Shown here: positions 5,498 to 12,261 of the stretch, in pieces | How the letters are laid out: each line of letters begins with the position of its first letter | Numbering within the stretch: position 1 is the first letter of the stretch | Assembly: GCA_903842595.1 (NCBI GenBank) | Contig: CAIMMO010000152.1 | Location: 1-64,000 of the forward strand | Length of the DNA: 64,000 nucleotides | Reading direction: 5' to 3' | Source of the DNA: an uncultured Alphaproteobacteria bacterium | GTDB lineage: Bacteria; Pseudomonadota; Alphaproteobacteria; Caulobacterales; Hyphomonadaceae | Notes under the pieces: generated by a model | Told to the model about the DNA's origin: nothing | The model's database searches: none | The model's input: the letters and a program-made list of their open reading frames with translations, nothing else | Program-made: the position numbers and the translations under genes

Positions 5498-6679
5498 ATG
5501 TCCGTGGAACTCGACCTTTCCCGTAAGCCGCCTTCGCCGGCTGTCTCGAACCTTGCCGGGCTCGGGCGCGAAGGCCTGCGCCAGGCGATGATCGCCGCCG
5601 GCGTCGAGGAAAAGAAGGCGCGCATGCGCGCCACCCAGCTCTGGCGGTGGATTTACCATTACGGCGTCACCGACTTTGCGAAGATGACCGATGTCGCCAA
5701 GGAACTCCGCGCCCAGCTGGGCGACAAATTCGTCCTCGAACGTCCACCCATCTCGATGGCCCAGACCTCCGTCGATGGCACACGCAAATGGCTCATCGGT
5801 TATGGCCCGAATGTCGAAGCCGAATGCGTCTACATCCCCGACGTCGGCAAGGCAGGCGCGCTCTGCGTCTCCAGCCAGGTCGGCTGCACGCTGACATGCT
5901 CCTTCTGCCACACCGGCACGCAGAAGCTGGTGCGCAACCTGTCCGCCGCCGAGATCGTCAACCAGATCATGGTCGCCCGCGACGCGCTGGAAGAATGGCC
6001 CACGGCCGAGCGCCCGCTCAACATCGGCGACCGCCGCCTGACCAACATCGTCTTCATGGGCATGGGCGAGCCACTCTACAATCTCGACAATGTCGTGGAC
6101 GCGCTCGAGACCATCGGCGATGGCGACGGCATTTCGATCTCGAAACGCCGCATCACTGTTTCCACGGCAGGCGTCGCGCCGAAAATCCCCGAGCTTGGCA
6201 AGCGGACCGGCGCCATGCTCGCCATCAGCCTGCACGCCACGAATGACGACCTGCGGGACGAACTCGTGCCGCTCAACAAGAAGTACGACCTCAGGGAACT
6301 CTTCGACGCCATCCGCGCCTATCCGGACCTTTCGAACTCGAAGCGCGTCACCTTCGAATACGTCATGCTCAAGGGCGTCAACGACACGCTGGCCGAAGCG
6401 AAGGATCTCGTGCGTCTGCTGAAAGGCGTGCCGTCCAAGATCAACCTGATCCCGTTCAACCCGTGGCCGGGCACGAACTACGAATGCTCCGACTGGGACA
6501 CGATCGAAGCCTTCGCCGAGGTGCTCAATCGTGCCGGTTACGCGAGCCCCATCCGCACGCCCCGCGGCCGCGACATCCTTGCCGCCTGTGGCCAGCTGCG
6601 TTCGGAGTCGGTGAAGGAGAAAGCCAGCGAACGCCTGAAGGCGCGTCTGGCCGAGAAGGCGGCTTCGGCGGAATCTTAG
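5498..6679 (+). CDS. rlmN: Dual-specificity rRNA/tRNA adenine-C2 methyltransferase RlmN
   Basis: 393 residues. RlmN is a radical SAM enzyme that methylates C2 of A2503 in 23S rRNA and A37 in a set of tRNAs. The iron-sulfur motif CTLTCSFC places the three cluster cysteines at 130, 134 and 137. [10 protein letters not shown] (SAM binding) and LKGVND are family hallmarks, and CG in ILAACGQL near the C-terminus supplies the methyl-carrying cysteine. Length and order match the family. It stands alone between the IalB-like gene and a transporter. Confidence 0.96.
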
Positions 6680-6933
6680 GGTGCGGACCGAGCGCTTCGG
6701 GCGCGCGGACCGCAAGAGTCAGCGCGCGCCCGGGGCGCGTCCCGCAATCGAACCGCCCGCATCACAGCCATGAAGATGTGGCTCATCGCTAAACTCGCCC
6801 CATGGCGTTTCCGGGCGAACACAGACCCCATCCGGACGCCGGAAAACTGCCTCCGCACACGAACTGAAGCCCCGCTACCCGTTGCGCGTCAGGTGTTTTC
6901 TGGCCTAACCCACTCCCTGTTCCGGAGGGCGCA

Positions 6934-8211
6934 ATGACGGCATCACCTGCAGCAACCGAACGCGCGCCCGCCGCGCGGGTGCTCACTGCCAGCCTCGTCG
7001 GTACTGCGGTCGAGTTCTACGATTTCTACATATACGCGACGGCTGCAGCGCTCGTCTTCCCGCAGCTCTTCTTCCCGTCGGAATCGGCAACCGCGCAGCT
7101 GATGTCGTCCTACGCGACGTTCGCGATCGCGTTCATCGCGCGGCCCGTCGGGGCCGTGGCCTTCGGCCATTTCGGCGACCGCATCGGGCGCAAGTCCACG
7201 CTGGTCTGGTCGCTGATGCTGATGGGCGGCTCCACCATGGCCATCGCCTTCCTGCCCACCTATGCGCAGGCCGGATGGATCGCGCCGCTCCTGCTCTGCA
7301 TCCTCCGCTTCGGCCAGGGTCTTGGCCTCGGTGGAGAGTGGGGCGGGGCGGCATTGCTTGCCGTCGAGAACGCGCCACCGGGATGGAAAGCCCGCTTCGG
7401 CATGTTCCCGCAGCTTGGTGCGCCCGTGGGCTTCATCGCCGCAAACGGCCTCTTCCTCATTCTCGGCCTTGTGCTCAGCCAGGATGATTTCCTCGCCTGG
7501 GGCTGGCGCATCCCTTTCCTCGCGAGCGCTCTCCTGGTGATCATCGGCCTCTGGGTTCGCCTCAAGCTCACCGAGACGCCCGCCTTCAAGGCCGTGCTCG
7601 AGAAGGAGCGCCCGCCCATGGTCCCGCTGGGCGAGCTGTTCCGCCTCCACTGGCGCGAGACCCTCGGCGGCACTTTCGGCGTCGTCGCCTGCTTCTGCAT
7701 CTACTACATCGCCACCGCCTTTGCGCTTGGCTACGGCACCACGACGCTGGGCATCCAGCGCGAGACCTTCCTGCAGGTGCAGCTGGTCGCGATCCTGTTC
7801 ATGGCCGGCGGCATTGTCTGGGCTGGCTACTGGGCGGACGCTTCCACGCCGCGCATCGTCCTGGCATTCGGCTGCGCGCTCTCGATCGGCGCCGGCTTCC
7901 TGCTCGCCCCGATGATGGGTGGCGGCGACCTTCTCCTGATCGGCGGGTTTCTCTCGCTCCTTCTTCTGCTGATGGGCTTCGTCTACGGCCCGCTCGGCGC
8001 CTGGCTTCCCGGCCTCTTCCCGGCGCGCGTGCGCTACACCGGGGCCAGTGTCGCCTTCAATGTCGGCGGCGTCATCGGCGGCGGCTTCACGCCCATCGTC
8101 GCCGCTTCACTTGCCGCGGAGGGCCTCGATCTCGTCGGCATCTATCTCAGCGCTGCGGCGGCCCTGAGCTTCATTGCGCTCATGCTGTTGCGCAAACCTG
8201 CGCTCGACTGA
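6934..8211 (+). CDS. MFS transporter, metabolite:H+ symporter (MHS) type
   Basis: 425 residues with about 12 hydrophobic segments. The first helix region (VGTAVEFYDFYIYATAA) and the loop-2 motif GHFGDRIGRKSTL match the MHS branch of the major facilitator superfamily, which carries organic acids, betaines or shikimate with protons. LGLGGEWGGA in helix 4 is also typical. The substrate cannot be read from the sequence. GGAGGG precedes the ATG at a normal distance. The next gene begins 13 bp after the stop and may be co-transcribed. Confidence 0.88.
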   Translation: MTASPAATERAPAARVLTASLVGTAVEFYDFYIYATAAALVFPQLFFPSESATAQLMSSYATFAIAFIARPVGAVAFGHFGDRIGRKSTLVWSLMLMGGSTMAIAFLPTYAQAGWIAPLLLCILRFGQGLGLGGEWGGAALLAVENAPPGWKARFGMFPQLGAPVGFIAANGLFLILGLVLSQDDFLAWGWRIPFLASALLVIIGLWVRLKLTETPAFKAVLEKERPPMVPLGELFRLHWRETLGGTFGVVACFCIYYIATAFALGYGTTTLGIQRETFLQVQLVAILFMAGGIVWAGYWADASTPRIVLAFGCALSIGAGFLLAPMMGGGDLLLIGGFLSLLLLLMGFVYGPLGAWLPGLFPARVRYTGASVAFNVGGVIGGGFTPIVAASLAAEGLDLVGIYLSAAAALSFIALMLLRKPALD

Positions 8212-8224
8212 AAAGGAACTCCGG

Positions 8225-8647
8225 ATGAAGCGCGTCCTCTACGCCCTCGCTCTCGCATGCCTTGCCGCTCCTGCCATCGCGCAGCAGGGCGCCACCGCGA
8301 TCGAGCATGAAGGTCGCGCCCTGATCAACCAGTGGGTCGCCGCGTTCAATCGTGGCGACGCTGACGCGCTGGCGGCGCTGGAGGTCGCGCCCGACACGGC
8401 GAAGCTGGCGACAACCATCGCAAACCTTCGCGCCGACAGTTTCGGCAAGCTCGACGTCTACAGCGCAGCATTCTGCGGTGTCGATTCCACCCACGGCAAG
8501 GCGATCGTGAAATTCGCCCGCATCTACACTTTCGGCGGCAAGATGAATGACGACGAAGCCAGGATCTTCGACATCGCGAAGACTGACGCCGGCTGGCGCA
8601 TCACGCGCGAGACCGACGCGCCCTATGCCTCGGTCCTGTCCTGCTGA
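8225..8647 (+). CDS. Secreted NTF2/SnoaL-like protein
   Basis: 140 residues with a cleavable signal peptide (APAIAQQ). The mature part begins with an amphipathic helix (ALINQWVAAFNRGDADALAAL) and ends with DAGWRITRE, the layout of small cone-shaped NTF2/SnoaL/DUF4440 domains. No catalytic residues can be assigned. The ATG at 8225 begins the signal peptide. A related secreted protein lies at 9766-10233, so the neighbourhood holds two such domains. Confidence 0.6.
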   Translation: MKRVLYALALACLAAPAIAQQGATAIEHEGRALINQWVAAFNRGDADALAALEVAPDTAKLATTIANLRADSFGKLDVYSAAFCGVDSTHGKAIVKFARIYTFGGKMNDDEARIFDIAKTDAGWRITRETDAPYASVLSC

Positions 8648-8650
8648 GCC

Positions 8651-9679
8651 CTACTGCCCAAAGCGCTCCACCACGTCGCTGGTGTCGCTTCCGCTCGGCT
8701 TCCTTGCTCCGCCGACCAGCCAGATCGCGTCACCGATCGTGATCCCGCCCAGCCCGTGGCGCGGCGTTGGCATGGGCGCCGCGGCCTCCCACGCATCCGT
8801 CCTGGGATCATACGCCCACACCTCGGCGTGGACCTTGCCGCCATCGTGGAAATACTCGCCGCCGAAGACGTAGAGCCTCCCCGCGATCACGCCCGCTGCA
8901 TTGCCGCCCGCGCCTGATCCCTTCGGCATCGGTGCGGCGCTGCGCCACCTGTCTTCCTTCGGATCGTAGACCTCATGCGCATCCGACGGCCCATCGGCCA
9001 CATGCCGCCCGCCCGCCACATGCCACAGCCCGCCGATCATCGCCCCCGCAGCGCTGTTGCGCTTCGACAGCGCGGGCGCCGCCTTCGACCAGGCATCTGA
9101 CCCCAGATCGTAGACCAGGTGCTGATCGGTATCTGCATGATCGCCATAGGCGAGGTTCGCTGCGCCCTTCGGCGCGCGTCCGCCTGCAATATGGATGCGC
9201 TGCCCGACAACAGCCGCCGTCGATTCGCCATGCGGCGATGGCGCAGCCGCAAGTGCGCGCCATGCGCCAGCTGCTTCCTCGAGCACCAGCGTCTCGCTCT
9301 GCATGATCCAGTTCACTGCGCCCGGGTTCGTCGCGAACCCGCCCAGCAGGTAGAGCCTGCCGCCAGCGCTCACCGCCTGCGGATGATGCCGCGGCGCGGG
9401 CAGGGCGGCCATCATCGCGGACTTGCCTGTTGCAGGATCATAAGCGACATGCCGGTCAGAGACGCCGACCACGCGCCCGCCTTCGCCCAGCAGCCCGCCT
9501 GCAACATGGATGCGCCCGCCATGCAGCGCCGGATAGATTTCCTGCACCGCGAACGGCAGACGCGGCTTTGCGCTCCACTGCGGCGCAACGGGCGCCTGCG
9601 CATCGCCCGGCTGGTTGGCGCATGCCGCAGCAATTCCGGCTCCGGCCGCGACAATTGCAGATCGACGCGTCAGCAACAT
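8651..9679 (-). CDS. Exported Kelch-repeat protein
   Basis: 342 residues. The N-terminus carries an RRS twin-arginine-like stretch, a hydrophobic region and AAAC resembling a lipobox, so it is probably exported and perhaps lipidated. At least five Kelch blades can be seen, each with a GG pair (LLGGF, IAGGR, VAGGR, VFGGE, LVGGA) and a Tyr/Trp pair (YDPKEDRW, YDPRTDAW). Kelch propellers bind partners or, in galactose oxidases and sialate mutarotases, act as enzymes; nothing here identifies catalysis. It converges on the NTF2-like gene with a 3-bp gap. Confidence 0.85.
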   Translation of the reverse strand: MLLTRRSAIVAAGAGIAAACANQPGDAQAPVAPQWSAKPRLPFAVQEIYPALHGGRIHVAGGLLGEGGRVVGVSDRHVAYDPATGKSAMMAALPAPRHHPQAVSAGGRLYLLGGFATNPGAVNWIMQSETLVLEEAAGAWRALAAAPSPHGESTAAVVGQRIHIAGGRAPKGAANLAYGDHADTDQHLVYDLGSDAWSKAAPALSKRNSAAGAMIGGLWHVAGGRHVADGPSDAHEVYDPKEDRWRSAAPMPKGSGAGGNAAGVIAGRLYVFGGEYFHDGGKVHAEVWAYDPRTDAWEAAAPMPTPRHGLGGITIGDAIWLVGGARKPSGSDTSDVVERFGQ

Positions 9680-9765
9680 CGTGATTGACCCCTCGCTCGA
9701 CTAAGGCAGCAACGCCGCTAGCATGCGCGAAAACGACCAACGAAGAAATAGCGGGATCAAACACC

Positions 9766-10233
9766 ATGCGGTTCGCCTTGTCCTTCGCGCTTCTTGCGCT
9801 CCCGGCATGCGCTGGCATGCCAACCGCCTCATCGCTTGCCCCTGAAGCGGCCGTCGCGCAGCACATGTGGGACTATACCAGGGCGTGGAACCGCCACGAC
9901 TCGGCGACCATCGCCCGCGACTTCTACCGCACCGGCCCCTCGGTCGAGGAGCAGACCGCCAGCCTCGAACGCGGCTTTGTCAGCCTGCGCGAGCAAGGGT
10001 ATCACCATTCAGACATCCATGAGGTCAAGTCGTGCATCACCGGGGGTAACACCGCCTGGGCCGCAATGAAGTTCTCGCGCCTGAAGCAGAATGGCGAACC
10101 GCTCCCGCCGACGATCCGCGCCAGCTCCTACACCCTGGCGAAATTCGCGGACGGCTGGCGCATCACGAAAGTCGGCGCGGGCGGTGTCTCGGCAGAGGCG
10201 CCGCTTGCATGTCCAGCGCCAGCCTCTCCCTGA
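9766..10233 (+). CDS. NTF2-like putative lipoprotein
   Basis: 155 residues. The signal peptide ends LPAC, a lipobox with Cys near residue 15. The mature region has a helix starting HMWDYTRAWNRHDS and a closing FADGWRITKV, like the protein at 8225-8647, suggesting a SnoaL/DUF4440-type fold. The role is unknown. The ATG at 9766 begins the signal peptide; the frame is open for 27 codons before it without a signal-like start. Confidence 0.6.
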   Translation: MRFALSFALLALPACAGMPTASSLAPEAAVAQHMWDYTRAWNRHDSATIARDFYRTGPSVEEQTASLERGFVSLREQGYHHSDIHEVKSCITGGNTAWAAMKFSRLKQNGEPLPPTIRASSYTLAKFADGWRITKVGAGGVSAEAPLACPAPASP

Positions 10234-10296: not shown

Positions 10297-11505
10297 TCAT
10301 CGCAGGTCGGCCAGCCGATCCTTCGTGATCCCCGCCACGCTGGTTACCCCGCACTGTCGCATCGTCGCGAGCAGCTCCTCGTCGAGCAGGCGCATGGCAA
10401 TACCGACGCCGTCCTCGCCAAATGCGCCAAGTCCCCACACATAGGGTCGCCCCACGCACACCATGCTGGCGCCCAGCGCCAGCGCCTTGAACGCGTCCGA
10501 TCCGCGCCGGATGCCGCCATCGATCAGGATCGGGACGCGCCCGTTCACGACCGCTGCGACCTCCGGCAGCACGTCGAGCGTGCCAACCAGGCTCTCCTCT
10601 GAACGCCCGCCATGATTGGAGATGATGATGCCATCGACACCGTGCCGGATCGCGAGCTCGGCATCTTCCCCTGTCATCACGCCCTTCACAAGAAGCCTGG
10701 TCTTCACCAGGTCGCGCAGTCGCGAGACATAGTCCCAGGTCAGCGCATTGCTGTTGGGCGAGACTGCGCCTGTCATGTCGATCCCGTCGAACATCTTCTT
10801 GCGCGAGAAGTCGTATCCGTTGCGCGGCGCATGGCATGTGCTGCAGGTCCGCGTGTCGCTGCGCGCGAAAATGGCCTGCGTCTCGCGCCGGTTGCCGCCG
10901 CCAAGCAGGTCGATCGTGAACACGATGGCGCCTGCGCCAGAGGCCTGCGCCCGCGCGATCATCTTCTCGCCAAGCGCCGGAATGCTGGTGGTATAGAGCT
11001 GCTGCCACACCGGCATGCCATGGGCCTTCATCACGTCTTCCAGCGACACCGTCGTCAGCGCCGACAGCATCTGCAGCGTGCGGCGCCTGCCGGCGGCCGC
11101 CCCGACTGCAGCCTCGCCATCGGCATGGAAGGCCTTCTGGCTCGACAGTGGCGAAAGCGCGATCGGCGAACCATACGTCTGTCCGAAAAGGGTCACGGCC
11201 AGGCTGACGCGCGAGACATCCACCAGGCGCCGCGGTCTCAACCCCCACCTGTCATAGGCCGATCTGTTCGACGCGACGGTGCGATCATCCTGCACGCCGC
11301 CTGTCAGATAGCCCCAGTGGGCTGGCGGAATAAGCTCCTTCGCGCGCGCCTCCAGCTCGAACACATTCAGTATGTCGCGTGCGTCCGCCATGGCGCTTGC
11401 CGCGCCCCGCTGCGCCAGCGCGTGTCCCCCGCCCAGCGCCCCCGCTGCAAGGGGCGCGGCGGCCAGCCACTGCATGAAGCGTCGCCTGTCCGCGTGATCC
11501 GCCAT
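10297..11505 (-). CDS. Tat-exported FMN-dependent alpha-hydroxy-acid dehydrogenase/oxidase
   Basis: 402 residues. The first 35 carry a twin-arginine signal (RRRFMQWLAAAP, then ALAQ), so folded FMN enzyme would be exported. The rest is the TIM-barrel L-lactate dehydrogenase/glycolate oxidase family: HWGYLTGG near the start, SNHGGR with the catalytic His, and ILIDGGIRRGSDAFKALALGA with VGRPYVWGL for FMN phosphate. An unusual CSTCH motif (Cys221, Cys224, His225) lies in the central loop region and fits a c-type haem attachment site. Electrons could pass to a periplasmic cytochrome rather than to oxygen; that is inference. Confidence 0.88.
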   Translation of the reverse strand: MADHADRRRFMQWLAAAPLAAGALGGGHALAQRGAASAMADARDILNVFELEARAKELIPPAHWGYLTGGVQDDRTVASNRSAYDRWGLRPRRLVDVSRVSLAVTLFGQTYGSPIALSPLSSQKAFHADGEAAVGAAAGRRRTLQMLSALTTVSLEDVMKAHGMPVWQQLYTTSIPALGEKMIARAQASGAGAIVFTIDLLGGGNRRETQAIFARSDTRTCSTCHAPRNGYDFSRKKMFDGIDMTGAVSPNSNALTWDYVSRLRDLVKTRLLVKGVMTGEDAELAIRHGVDGIIISNHGGRSEESLVGTLDVLPEVAAVVNGRVPILIDGGIRRGSDAFKALALGASMVCVGRPYVWGLGAFGEDGVGIAMRLLDEELLATMRQCGVTSVAGITKDRLADLR

Positions 11506-11580: not shown

Positions 11581-12261
11581 CTAGATCTTGTTGTCCTGAT
11601 CCAGCTGCGGATCATCTGCCGTGACCACGGTGAATGCACCTGTATCTGCATCGCGCCAGTGCAGCTCTCCCTTGCCGATCGAGAACCACGCCCCGTCCAG
11701 CGACAGCTGTCCGCGCTCGAATGCTGCACGCACGAACGGGAAGCTCATCAGGTTCTTCAGCGACTGTCCCACCGCGCCATGCTCCACCGCTTCCTGCCAG
11801 TCGCCCCGCGGGATCGTCTCGTTGCGCAGGACCGCGTCGCGCGCGTCCGCTGCAAGCTCAACCCAGGGCGCGATGAACTGGCCCACCGGCCTGTCCGCCG
11901 CCGCTGCAATCGACGCGGCAATGCCGCCGCATCCGCCATGGCCCATCACCACGATCTGCTTCACCTTGAGCGCTGTGACCGCAAACTCCAGCGCGGCCGA
12001 GACGCCGTGCAGGCCGCCGCCTTCTTCATAGGGAGGCACCAGCGCCGCCACATTGCGAACGGTGAACAGCTCCCCCGGCGCCGCATCGAAGATCATCGCA
12101 GGGTCGGCGCGGCTGTCGGCGCAGGCGATGATCATCGTCGCCGGCTGCTGGCCATCGCGCAGCCGCGAGAACAGGTCGCGCGCCTCGCGGTACCGGCTGG
12201 CGCGAAAGCGCCTGTAGCCGTCGATCAAATCCTGGGCGTCGTCAGCGAATTCGATGGTCAT
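11581..12261 (-). CDS. Beta-class carbonic anhydrase
   Basis: 226 residues. It interconverts CO2 and bicarbonate. The zinc ligands are visible as Cys47 in IIACADSR, His108 and Cys111 in VMGHGGCGG, with Asp49 of the conserved Asp-Arg dyad. No signal peptide, so cytoplasmic. It precedes a divergent TetR gene by 158 bp. Confidence 0.94.
   Translation of the reverse strand: MTIEFADDAQDLIDGYRRFRASRYREARDLFSRLRDGQQPATMIIACADSRADPAMIFDAAPGELFTVRNVAALVPPYEEGGGLHGVSAALEFAVTALKVKQIVVMGHGGCGGIAASIAAAADRPVGQFIAPWVELAADARDAVLRNETIPRGDWQEAVEHGAVGQSLKNLMSFPFVRAAFERGQLSLDGAWFSIGKGELHWRDADTGAFTVVTADDPQLDQDNKI

Follow-up and report, generated by a model that had tools for sequence, protein, structure and literature searches.

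The described system closest to the enzyme treated here is flavocytochrome b2 from the intermembrane space of mitochondria (L-lactate:cytochrome c oxidoreductase, EC 1.1.2.3), in which a barrel of the FMN-dependent 2-hydroxy-acid dehydrogenase family (FMN_dh, PF01070) is combined with haem b in an N-terminal b5-like domain. Glycolate oxidase, L-lactate oxidase and mandelate dehydrogenase have the same fold and use O2 or quinone as acceptor, and in mandelate dehydrogenase loop 4 of the barrel serves the membrane. According to the available portions of the sources, the acceptors of the family are oxygen, quinone, or cytochrome c via the fused b5 domain of flavocytochrome b2 (PMC8491902), and the haem of the latter is His/His-ligated and lies 0.53 nm edge-to-edge from the FMN (PMC6472588). 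Flavin and haem c are combined in p-cresol methylhydroxylase, flavocytochrome c sulfide dehydrogenase and flavocytochrome c3 fumarate reductase (PMC6472588, available part), which contain FAD in other folds and carry the haem in cytochrome domains or subunits of 74, 174 and 100 residues, respectively; the same part of this survey of haem c flavoenzymes names no member of the FMN_dh family. It also describes the magnetochrome of MamP, where haem c is held by a very short CxxCH stretch of 23 residues (PMC6472588).

The window, i.e., the whole 64,000-nucleotide stretch of contig CAIMMO010000152.1 from an uncultured alphaproteobacterium of the Hyphomonadaceae, encodes an enzyme that shares the PF01070 barrel of flavocytochrome b2 (1fcb was matched) as well as the fold and most catalytic residues of the oxidases and of mandelate dehydrogenase. 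Whereas flavocytochrome b2 carries its haem in a separate domain, the window enzyme has no b5 domain but a CxxCH motif inside loop 4, and it starts with a Tat signal. The motif is located in an enzyme lid, whereas the magnetochrome is part of a magnetosome protein, and the two are compared here for the shortness of the stretch around CxxCH that would hold haem c.

Materials and Methods

The 90-row alignment was composed of a set of 27 relatives from genome contigs, further loci from the profile search and a single Methylobacterium bullatum plasmid record. Excluded before counting were L001 and L034, which duplicate the window, L044 and L002, which duplicate L005 and L003, respectively, the N-terminal piece of L012, and the truncated or fragmentary rows L019, L028 and L029; L098, which shares genome and position with L006, was left out as well. 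Positions within residues 40-402 are termed clade-specific if conserved in at least 93% of the rows inside the CxxCH clade and in at most 25% of those outside. No RNA genes were detected in the window by Rfam at gathering score or by ARAGORN.

Results

The enzyme and its family

The predicted protein matches PF01070 across the whole barrel (residues 55-398; E=1.5e-105, 353.5 bits against a cut-off of 24.9), and VIA-align to 1gox yielded a Z of 47.7 over 344 residues with an rmsd of 1.9. It is to be regarded as an FMN-dependent 2-hydroxy-acid dehydrogenase, its activity and FMN binding being predicted from sequence. Equivalents of Y24, Y129, D157, K230, H254 and R257 of glycolate oxidase are all present, and they recur in 66/69, 69/69, 70/70, 70/70, 70/70 and 69/70 of the rows with CxxCH, respectively. 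Among the residues listed in Table 1, we take Tyr66 to correspond to Tyr24 in the active site of the spinach glycolate oxidase, Lys274 to the flavin-site Lys (K230) and His298 to the catalytic base (H254). In the region equivalent to R164, many members show N-T-E-T where the window protein has N-R-R-E-T, so that some of the clade may lack this Arg. Assignment as pre-mycofactocin synthase MftD (TIGR03966, 173.7 bits against a cut-off of 470.85), L-lactate dehydrogenase LldD (NF033901, 176.3 against 550) or L-lactate oxidase (TIGR02708, 183.9 against 645.5) was rejected. A cytochrome c domain (PF00034, PF13442 or a similar family) was not found in Pfam at E values up to 1, and none of the 10 Pfam matches belongs to the cytochrome b5 family; the chain begins with a Tat signal instead. 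A second FMN_dh protein in the same genome (G000:C138) lacks CxxCH.

An earlier note on this DNA had placed a Cys-Ser-Thr-Cys-His motif, suggestive of haem c, at residues 221-225 of this reading frame, which is borne out exactly by the DNA itself: read on the minus strand, positions 10851-10825 give cgg acc tgc agc aca tgc cat gcg ccg, which translates as R219 T220 C221 S222 T223 C224 H225 A226 P227. In the AF2 model the motif lies in the loop covering the active site, at a block mean pLDDT of 64 for residues 221-230, which stands for moderate model confidence around the motif. The N-terminus of the 402-residue enzyme reads MADHADRRRFMQWLAAAPLAAG and contains DRRRFMQWLAAAPLAAG, followed near residue 31 by ALAQ, which could be the cleavage site after a Tat-type signal.

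Table 1. Positions of the features discussed, numbered from the first letter of the window.
Feature	Position	Strand	Evidence
FMN-dependent alpha-hydroxy-acid dehydrogenase ORF, 402 aa, ATG start	10297..11505	(-)	PF01070 1.5e-105; 1gox fold match
Predicted Tat signal region, residues 1-31, DRRRFMQWLAAAPLAAG...ALA, then Q	11413..11505	(-)	sequence; cleavage place inferred
His63, candidate distal haem ligand, PxAHxGY	11317..11319	(-)	69/69 CxxCH rows covering the site vs 2/20 without CxxCH
Tyr66	11308..11310	(-)	66/69 rows; phmmer alignment to 1gox
Arg93, clade-specific	11227..11229	(-)	68/69 vs 1/20 relatives without CxxCH
Loop 4, active-site lid with motif, residues 198-256	10738..10914	(-)	AF2: strand 193-197 and helix 257-266 on either side
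Asp217, clade-specific, four residues ahead of motif	10855..10857	(-)	68/70 vs 1/20 without CxxCH
C221-S-T-C224-H225, candidate haem c attachment motif with His225 as putative proximal ligand	10831..10845	(-)	His in 70/70 two-Cys rows; one motif per protein
Met238 in R-K-(P/K)-M stretch	10792..10794	(-)	55 M, 12 N, 1 I, 1 A, 1 gap in 70 rows
Arg262, clade-specific; Trp in 17/20 relatives without CxxCH	10720..10722	(-)	67/70 vs 1/20
Lys274	10684..10686	(-)	70/70 CxxCH rows, 20/20 relatives without CxxCH
His298	10612..10614	(-)	70/70 CxxCH rows, 20/20 relatives without CxxCH
Carbonic anhydrase gene (Pro_CA)	11581-12261	(-)	75 bases upstream of enzyme gene, same strand
Kelch-repeat protein	8651-9679	(-)	own twin-arginine start MLLTRRSAIVAAGAGIAAACAN
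Small exported-looking protein flanking the kelch gene	9685-10233	(+)	weak match to NTF2-like family DUF6841
Small exported-looking protein flanking the kelch gene	8174-8647	(+)	no Pfam match

Conservation of the motif

Cysteines at both columns 221 and 224 are found in 70 of the 90 aligned rows, which include near copies (the window and L004; L040 and L097, identical over the tree region), and the second Cys is directly followed by His in all of them; the same 70 rows are thus the CxxCH rows, with one copy each. About 0.001 CxxCH motifs per 402-residue protein are expected by chance from the family's own composition. The CxxCH rows fall into 48 clusters at 80% identity, with a median pairwise identity of 48% and a minimum of 35%, and the two inner residues of the motif occur in 32 versions; because these vary so widely, the Cys and His residues are kept by selection rather than by recent descent. 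As judged from this pattern, the presence of CxxCH in the lid of a predicted exported FMN_dh enzyme is not due to chance. All nine full-length Tat-bearing relatives from the set of 27 (L004-L011, L024; 43-99% identity) have the motif at the same place, L004 being a near copy of the window enzyme (99% identical), and the frame-shifted L012 carries it in its second frame. Apart from these and L019, 14 of the remaining 16 relatives are without CxxCH, the place of the motif being outside L019, which ends earlier, and outside the matching frame of L028 and L029.

Nine positions in residues 40-402 proved to be clade-specific, namely His63, Arg93, Gly203, Asp217, Cys221, Cys224, His225, Arg262 and Phe362; Arg219, two residues before Cys221, is clade-specific as well. 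Arg93 is a possible partner of a haem propionate, and Arg262 a possible contact of the haem or of a propionate. A sub-branch of five members from the Acidobacteriota search (L052-L056) has, in addition to the CxxCH of the lid, a further Cys-x-x-Cys-Gly pair within the linker that joins the Tat motif to the barrel at the N-terminal end.

Phylogeny and distribution

In a midpoint-rooted IQ-TREE phylogeny of 89 FMN-dependent alpha-hydroxy-acid dehydrogenases, from which the L012 fragment was omitted and in which the motif columns were kept, the 69 CxxCH rows make up one side of a branch with a support of 100/99, L062 and L068 forming long branches. No motif-less row falls inside this group, relatives without the motif being under-sampled by a search profile that was built from CxxCH members and used with strict E-value limits; four of them (L043, L057, L058, L059) passed this profile nonetheless. 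The clustering of CxxCH on the tree was matched by none of 500 label shuffles. The sister of the group, joined at 100/100, is L057, which has the Tat motif RRQFFRFLAASPL and neither CxxCH nor His63. Since a Tat motif is present there without CxxCH, export probably preceded a single gain of the motif, as one reading of the tree given its midpoint root. L057 should be a useful sequence for dating this gain.

Named members of the clade come from Alphaproteobacteria, Gammaproteobacteria, Acidobacteriota, Gemmatimonadota and Rokubacteria, and their distribution is patchy. Matches within the strict limits were obtained in 4 of 249 genomes from the order to which the window belongs and in 7 of 349 from its phylum, its own genome being included in both counts and one match of the latter (L043) not being a clade member. 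Further matches occur in 8 of 199 genomes of one alphaproteobacterial family, three of which were already in the phylum set, and in 16 of 247 genomes of Acidobacteriota, of which three yielded CxxCH-less relatives only. In Gemmatimonadota, 45 of 200 genomes gave matches; 30 of these matches were taken further as loci, of which 29, all new, were read and all 29 contained CxxCH.

His63 as candidate distal ligand

Over residues 40-402, only three His residues are shared by 90% or more of the rows, namely His63, His225 and the presumed catalytic His298. The column of His63 contains Ala (7), Val (5), Glu (3) and His (2) among the 20 relatives without CxxCH, the two with His being the near-identical pair L058 and L059. 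His63 precedes the catalytic Tyr66 by one helical turn, and the AF2 model has a helix at residues 61-68, so that both side chains should face the same way in the model, toward the mouth of the active site beneath loop 4. His63 is retained in three rows in which Tyr66 is replaced by F, S or E. Two of these are the long-branch members L068 (Ser) and L062 (Glu), which have lost the active-site Tyr but kept CxxCH and His63 and may act on a different substrate or serve a different purpose.

The PxAHxGY stretch aligns without gaps to the start of glycolate oxidase in phmmer, and residues 37-398 align to 114-478 of 1fcb, Tyr66 corresponding to residue 143 if there is no gap in between. Tyr143 of flavocytochrome b2 contacts a haem propionate. 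A title on Y143F and intramolecular electron transfer is present in the reference list of PMC9624242.

The earlier note had suggested looking for a sixth ligand in a conserved Met or His nearby. Met238 was rejected in this general role, as it is absent in 15/70 rows, and the conserved candidate turned out to be His63, which is distant in sequence. As far as conservation can indicate, His63 fits a distal haem ligand better than Met238 of the loop.

Export and cytochrome c maturation

The motif co-occurs with Tat signals, a point that the earlier note had put forward as a check: a twin-arginine motif precedes the enzyme in 68/70 CxxCH rows, the remaining two being fragments, in a pattern search across the whole upstream stop-to-stop frame, a few matches of which could fall outside the true protein. 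The detached N-terminal frame of L012 contains DRRRFLKFL. Tat-bearing homologues without the cysteines, which the same note would have counted against a bound haem, do exist, but they are located outside the clade (L057, L058 and L059, i.e., 3/20 relatives without CxxCH).

A gene for TatC and the cytochrome c assembly family PF01578 are both present in the genome of the window. PF01578 was also found in the genomes of all 11 named relatives asked (L004-L012, L019, L024), in 26/26 further carriers (the window's genome included) and in 46/47 genomes without a clade member, amounting to 72/73 of the latter two groups. Being nearly universal in the genomes tested, these genes do not discriminate carriers from others and were discarded as a test; they indicate a possibility only.

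Tat substrates are exported in the folded state, whereas haem c is attached to an unfolded chain, and the flexible lid would therefore have to stay accessible. According to the available part of PMC10153336, loop 4 is flexible in relatives and contributes to catalysis, and this flexibility makes an attachment of haem c after Tat export conceivable.

Gene neighborhood

Cytochrome-like ORFs were observed within 4 kb of the enzyme gene in 7 of 70 loci scanned, a raw count that covers many loci with a flank of 1.5 kb and includes L096, which holds the non-clade L057. A cytochrome c gene supported by Pfam adjoins the enzyme gene in three lineages. In L079, it is located at 5615-5938, codes for 107 residues on the same strand and stops 38 bases before the likely ATG of the enzyme, its PF00034 score of 21.7 bits being barely above the cut-off of 21.3. 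The same gene pair is shared by L074 and L097, with a product of 191 residues that has an N-terminal hydrophobic segment and is encoded on the same strand (42.3 bits for PF00034 in L097), and the neighbor in L042 codes for 121 residues on the opposite strand (35.7 bits for PF00034). The pair of L097 is located at 6572-9086 of a 2.8-Mb record of Methylobacterium bullatum (NZ_LR743510.1), a named species from which the genes could readily be obtained for laboratory work. A neighboring ORF with CxxCH in L051, whose enzyme has the shortest lid, has no Pfam match, and the cytochrome-like ORFs of L005 and L008 are 3.9 and 1.2 kb away from the enzyme. No cytochrome neighbor was seen in the window, as in most of the loci scanned.

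A conserved operon did not emerge either, as no shared partner was found by clustering the ORFs of 39 loci. Clusters present in at least three of these loci comprise the enzyme (29), its antisense frame (9), an ATPase resembling ABC-F (5), a beta-lactamase-like protein (3) and an ORF of 239 residues with the appearance of an antisense frame (3), the ORFs having been picked mechanically and some of them being antisense frames. The position and orientation of the carbonic anhydrase gene in the window (Table 1) make co-transcription with the enzyme gene possible, so the two may share a transcript; their association did not recur in at least three of the 39 clustered loci. The kelch-repeat protein encoded on the other side is possibly a Tat lipoprotein, as judged from its own start.

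Discussion

Taken together, we consider it probable, with some reserve, that the window enzyme is a periplasmic, Tat-exported monohaem flavocytochrome c, resembling flavocytochrome b2 without its cytochrome domain, in which haem c is carried by the lid (loop 4) and probably ligated by two His residues. The proposal of a self-contained flavocytochrome c made in the earlier note is thereby upheld as the best reading of the conservation pattern, while the covalent haem itself keeps the status of a prediction. Cys221 and Cys224 would form the thioethers to the haem and His225 would be the proximal ligand, the distal ligand being most likely His63, whose helix also bears Tyr66, the residue in contact with the substrate; with His63 in this role, the lid would be clamped over the flavin by the haem. 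The FMN would be reduced by a 2-hydroxy acid at the mouth of the barrel, as in the FMN_dh family, and the electrons would exit singly via the haem of the lid, their acceptor being a cytochrome c that is either soluble or membrane-bound. The likeness to flavocytochrome b2 would thus extend to the combination of FMN with one haem, which is predicted here, and probably to the His/His ligation and the cytochrome c acceptor. A more far-reaching version, offered tentatively and in our estimate somewhat more apt to fail than to hold, is that ligation of a haem c in the catalytic lid by His225 and His63 is coupled to the opening and closing of the lid, making it a redox-gated lid in which the path for electrons is formed and broken with every substrate event, and that the clade represents a widespread, unrecognised class of flavocytochromes.

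The conservation of C221, C224, H225 and H63 may also be explained without haem, by a Cys2His2-like Zn or Fe site that pins the lid to the Tyr66 helix and has a structural or gating function. Four clade-specific ligand-type residues conserved together suit such a site as well as a His/His-ligated haem c, but their arrangement is that of the haem c motif letter for letter, and the clade-specific Arg93, Arg219 and Arg262 would suit haem propionates. Since it is also unusual for adjacent residues such as Cys224 and His225 to bind one and the same metal ion, we regard the metal site as improbable.

The disulfide envisaged in the earlier note as an alternative would stiffen the exported lid via C221 and C224, leaving the following His as a residue of the substrate or flavin site. 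Probable export to an oxidising compartment, as indicated by the Tat motif, would favor it, and a brace would be useful in a loop that is flexible in relatives (PMC10153336, available part). Yet a disulfide needs neither the His at +1, found in 70/70 rows, nor the co-conserved His63 (69/69 vs 2/20), and these two residues are left unexplained by it, which renders it quite improbable.

The least probable of the alternatives, and a very doubtful one, is a haem c that is five-coordinate or ligated by Met or Asn of the loop and that serves in sensing or in the removal of peroxide instead of passing electrons out: Met is a known haem ligand, as is Asn in one small class of cytochromes, and the column of Met238 holds Met in 55/70 and Asn in 12/70 rows, but 10/70 CxxCH rows have no Met or His at all between H225 and W257, His63 is invariant where covered, and the neighboring cytochrome c genes favor electron export.

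A description of the CxxCH-containing FMN_dh clade was not found in the open-licence literature among the titles and abstract openings listed, which is weak evidence of novelty, and PMC11238220 on alternative L-lactate oxidases of the FMN_dh family makes no mention of heme, Tat, signal peptide, periplasm or cytochrome. Because the predicted haem site is part of a loop and not of a domain, family profiles name the flavoenzyme part only, and the haem would be missed in annotation. Third-generation biosensors of the lactate type call for just such an enzyme, small, exported and equipped with a haem. If the lid haem c is real, it would represent a further solution of the FMN_dh family to the acceptor problem and be among the smallest flavin-to-haem wires. 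It would also suggest that 2-hydroxy acids are oxidised by bacteria from several phyla on the outer side of the cytoplasmic membrane, the electrons passing straight into the cytochrome c pool.
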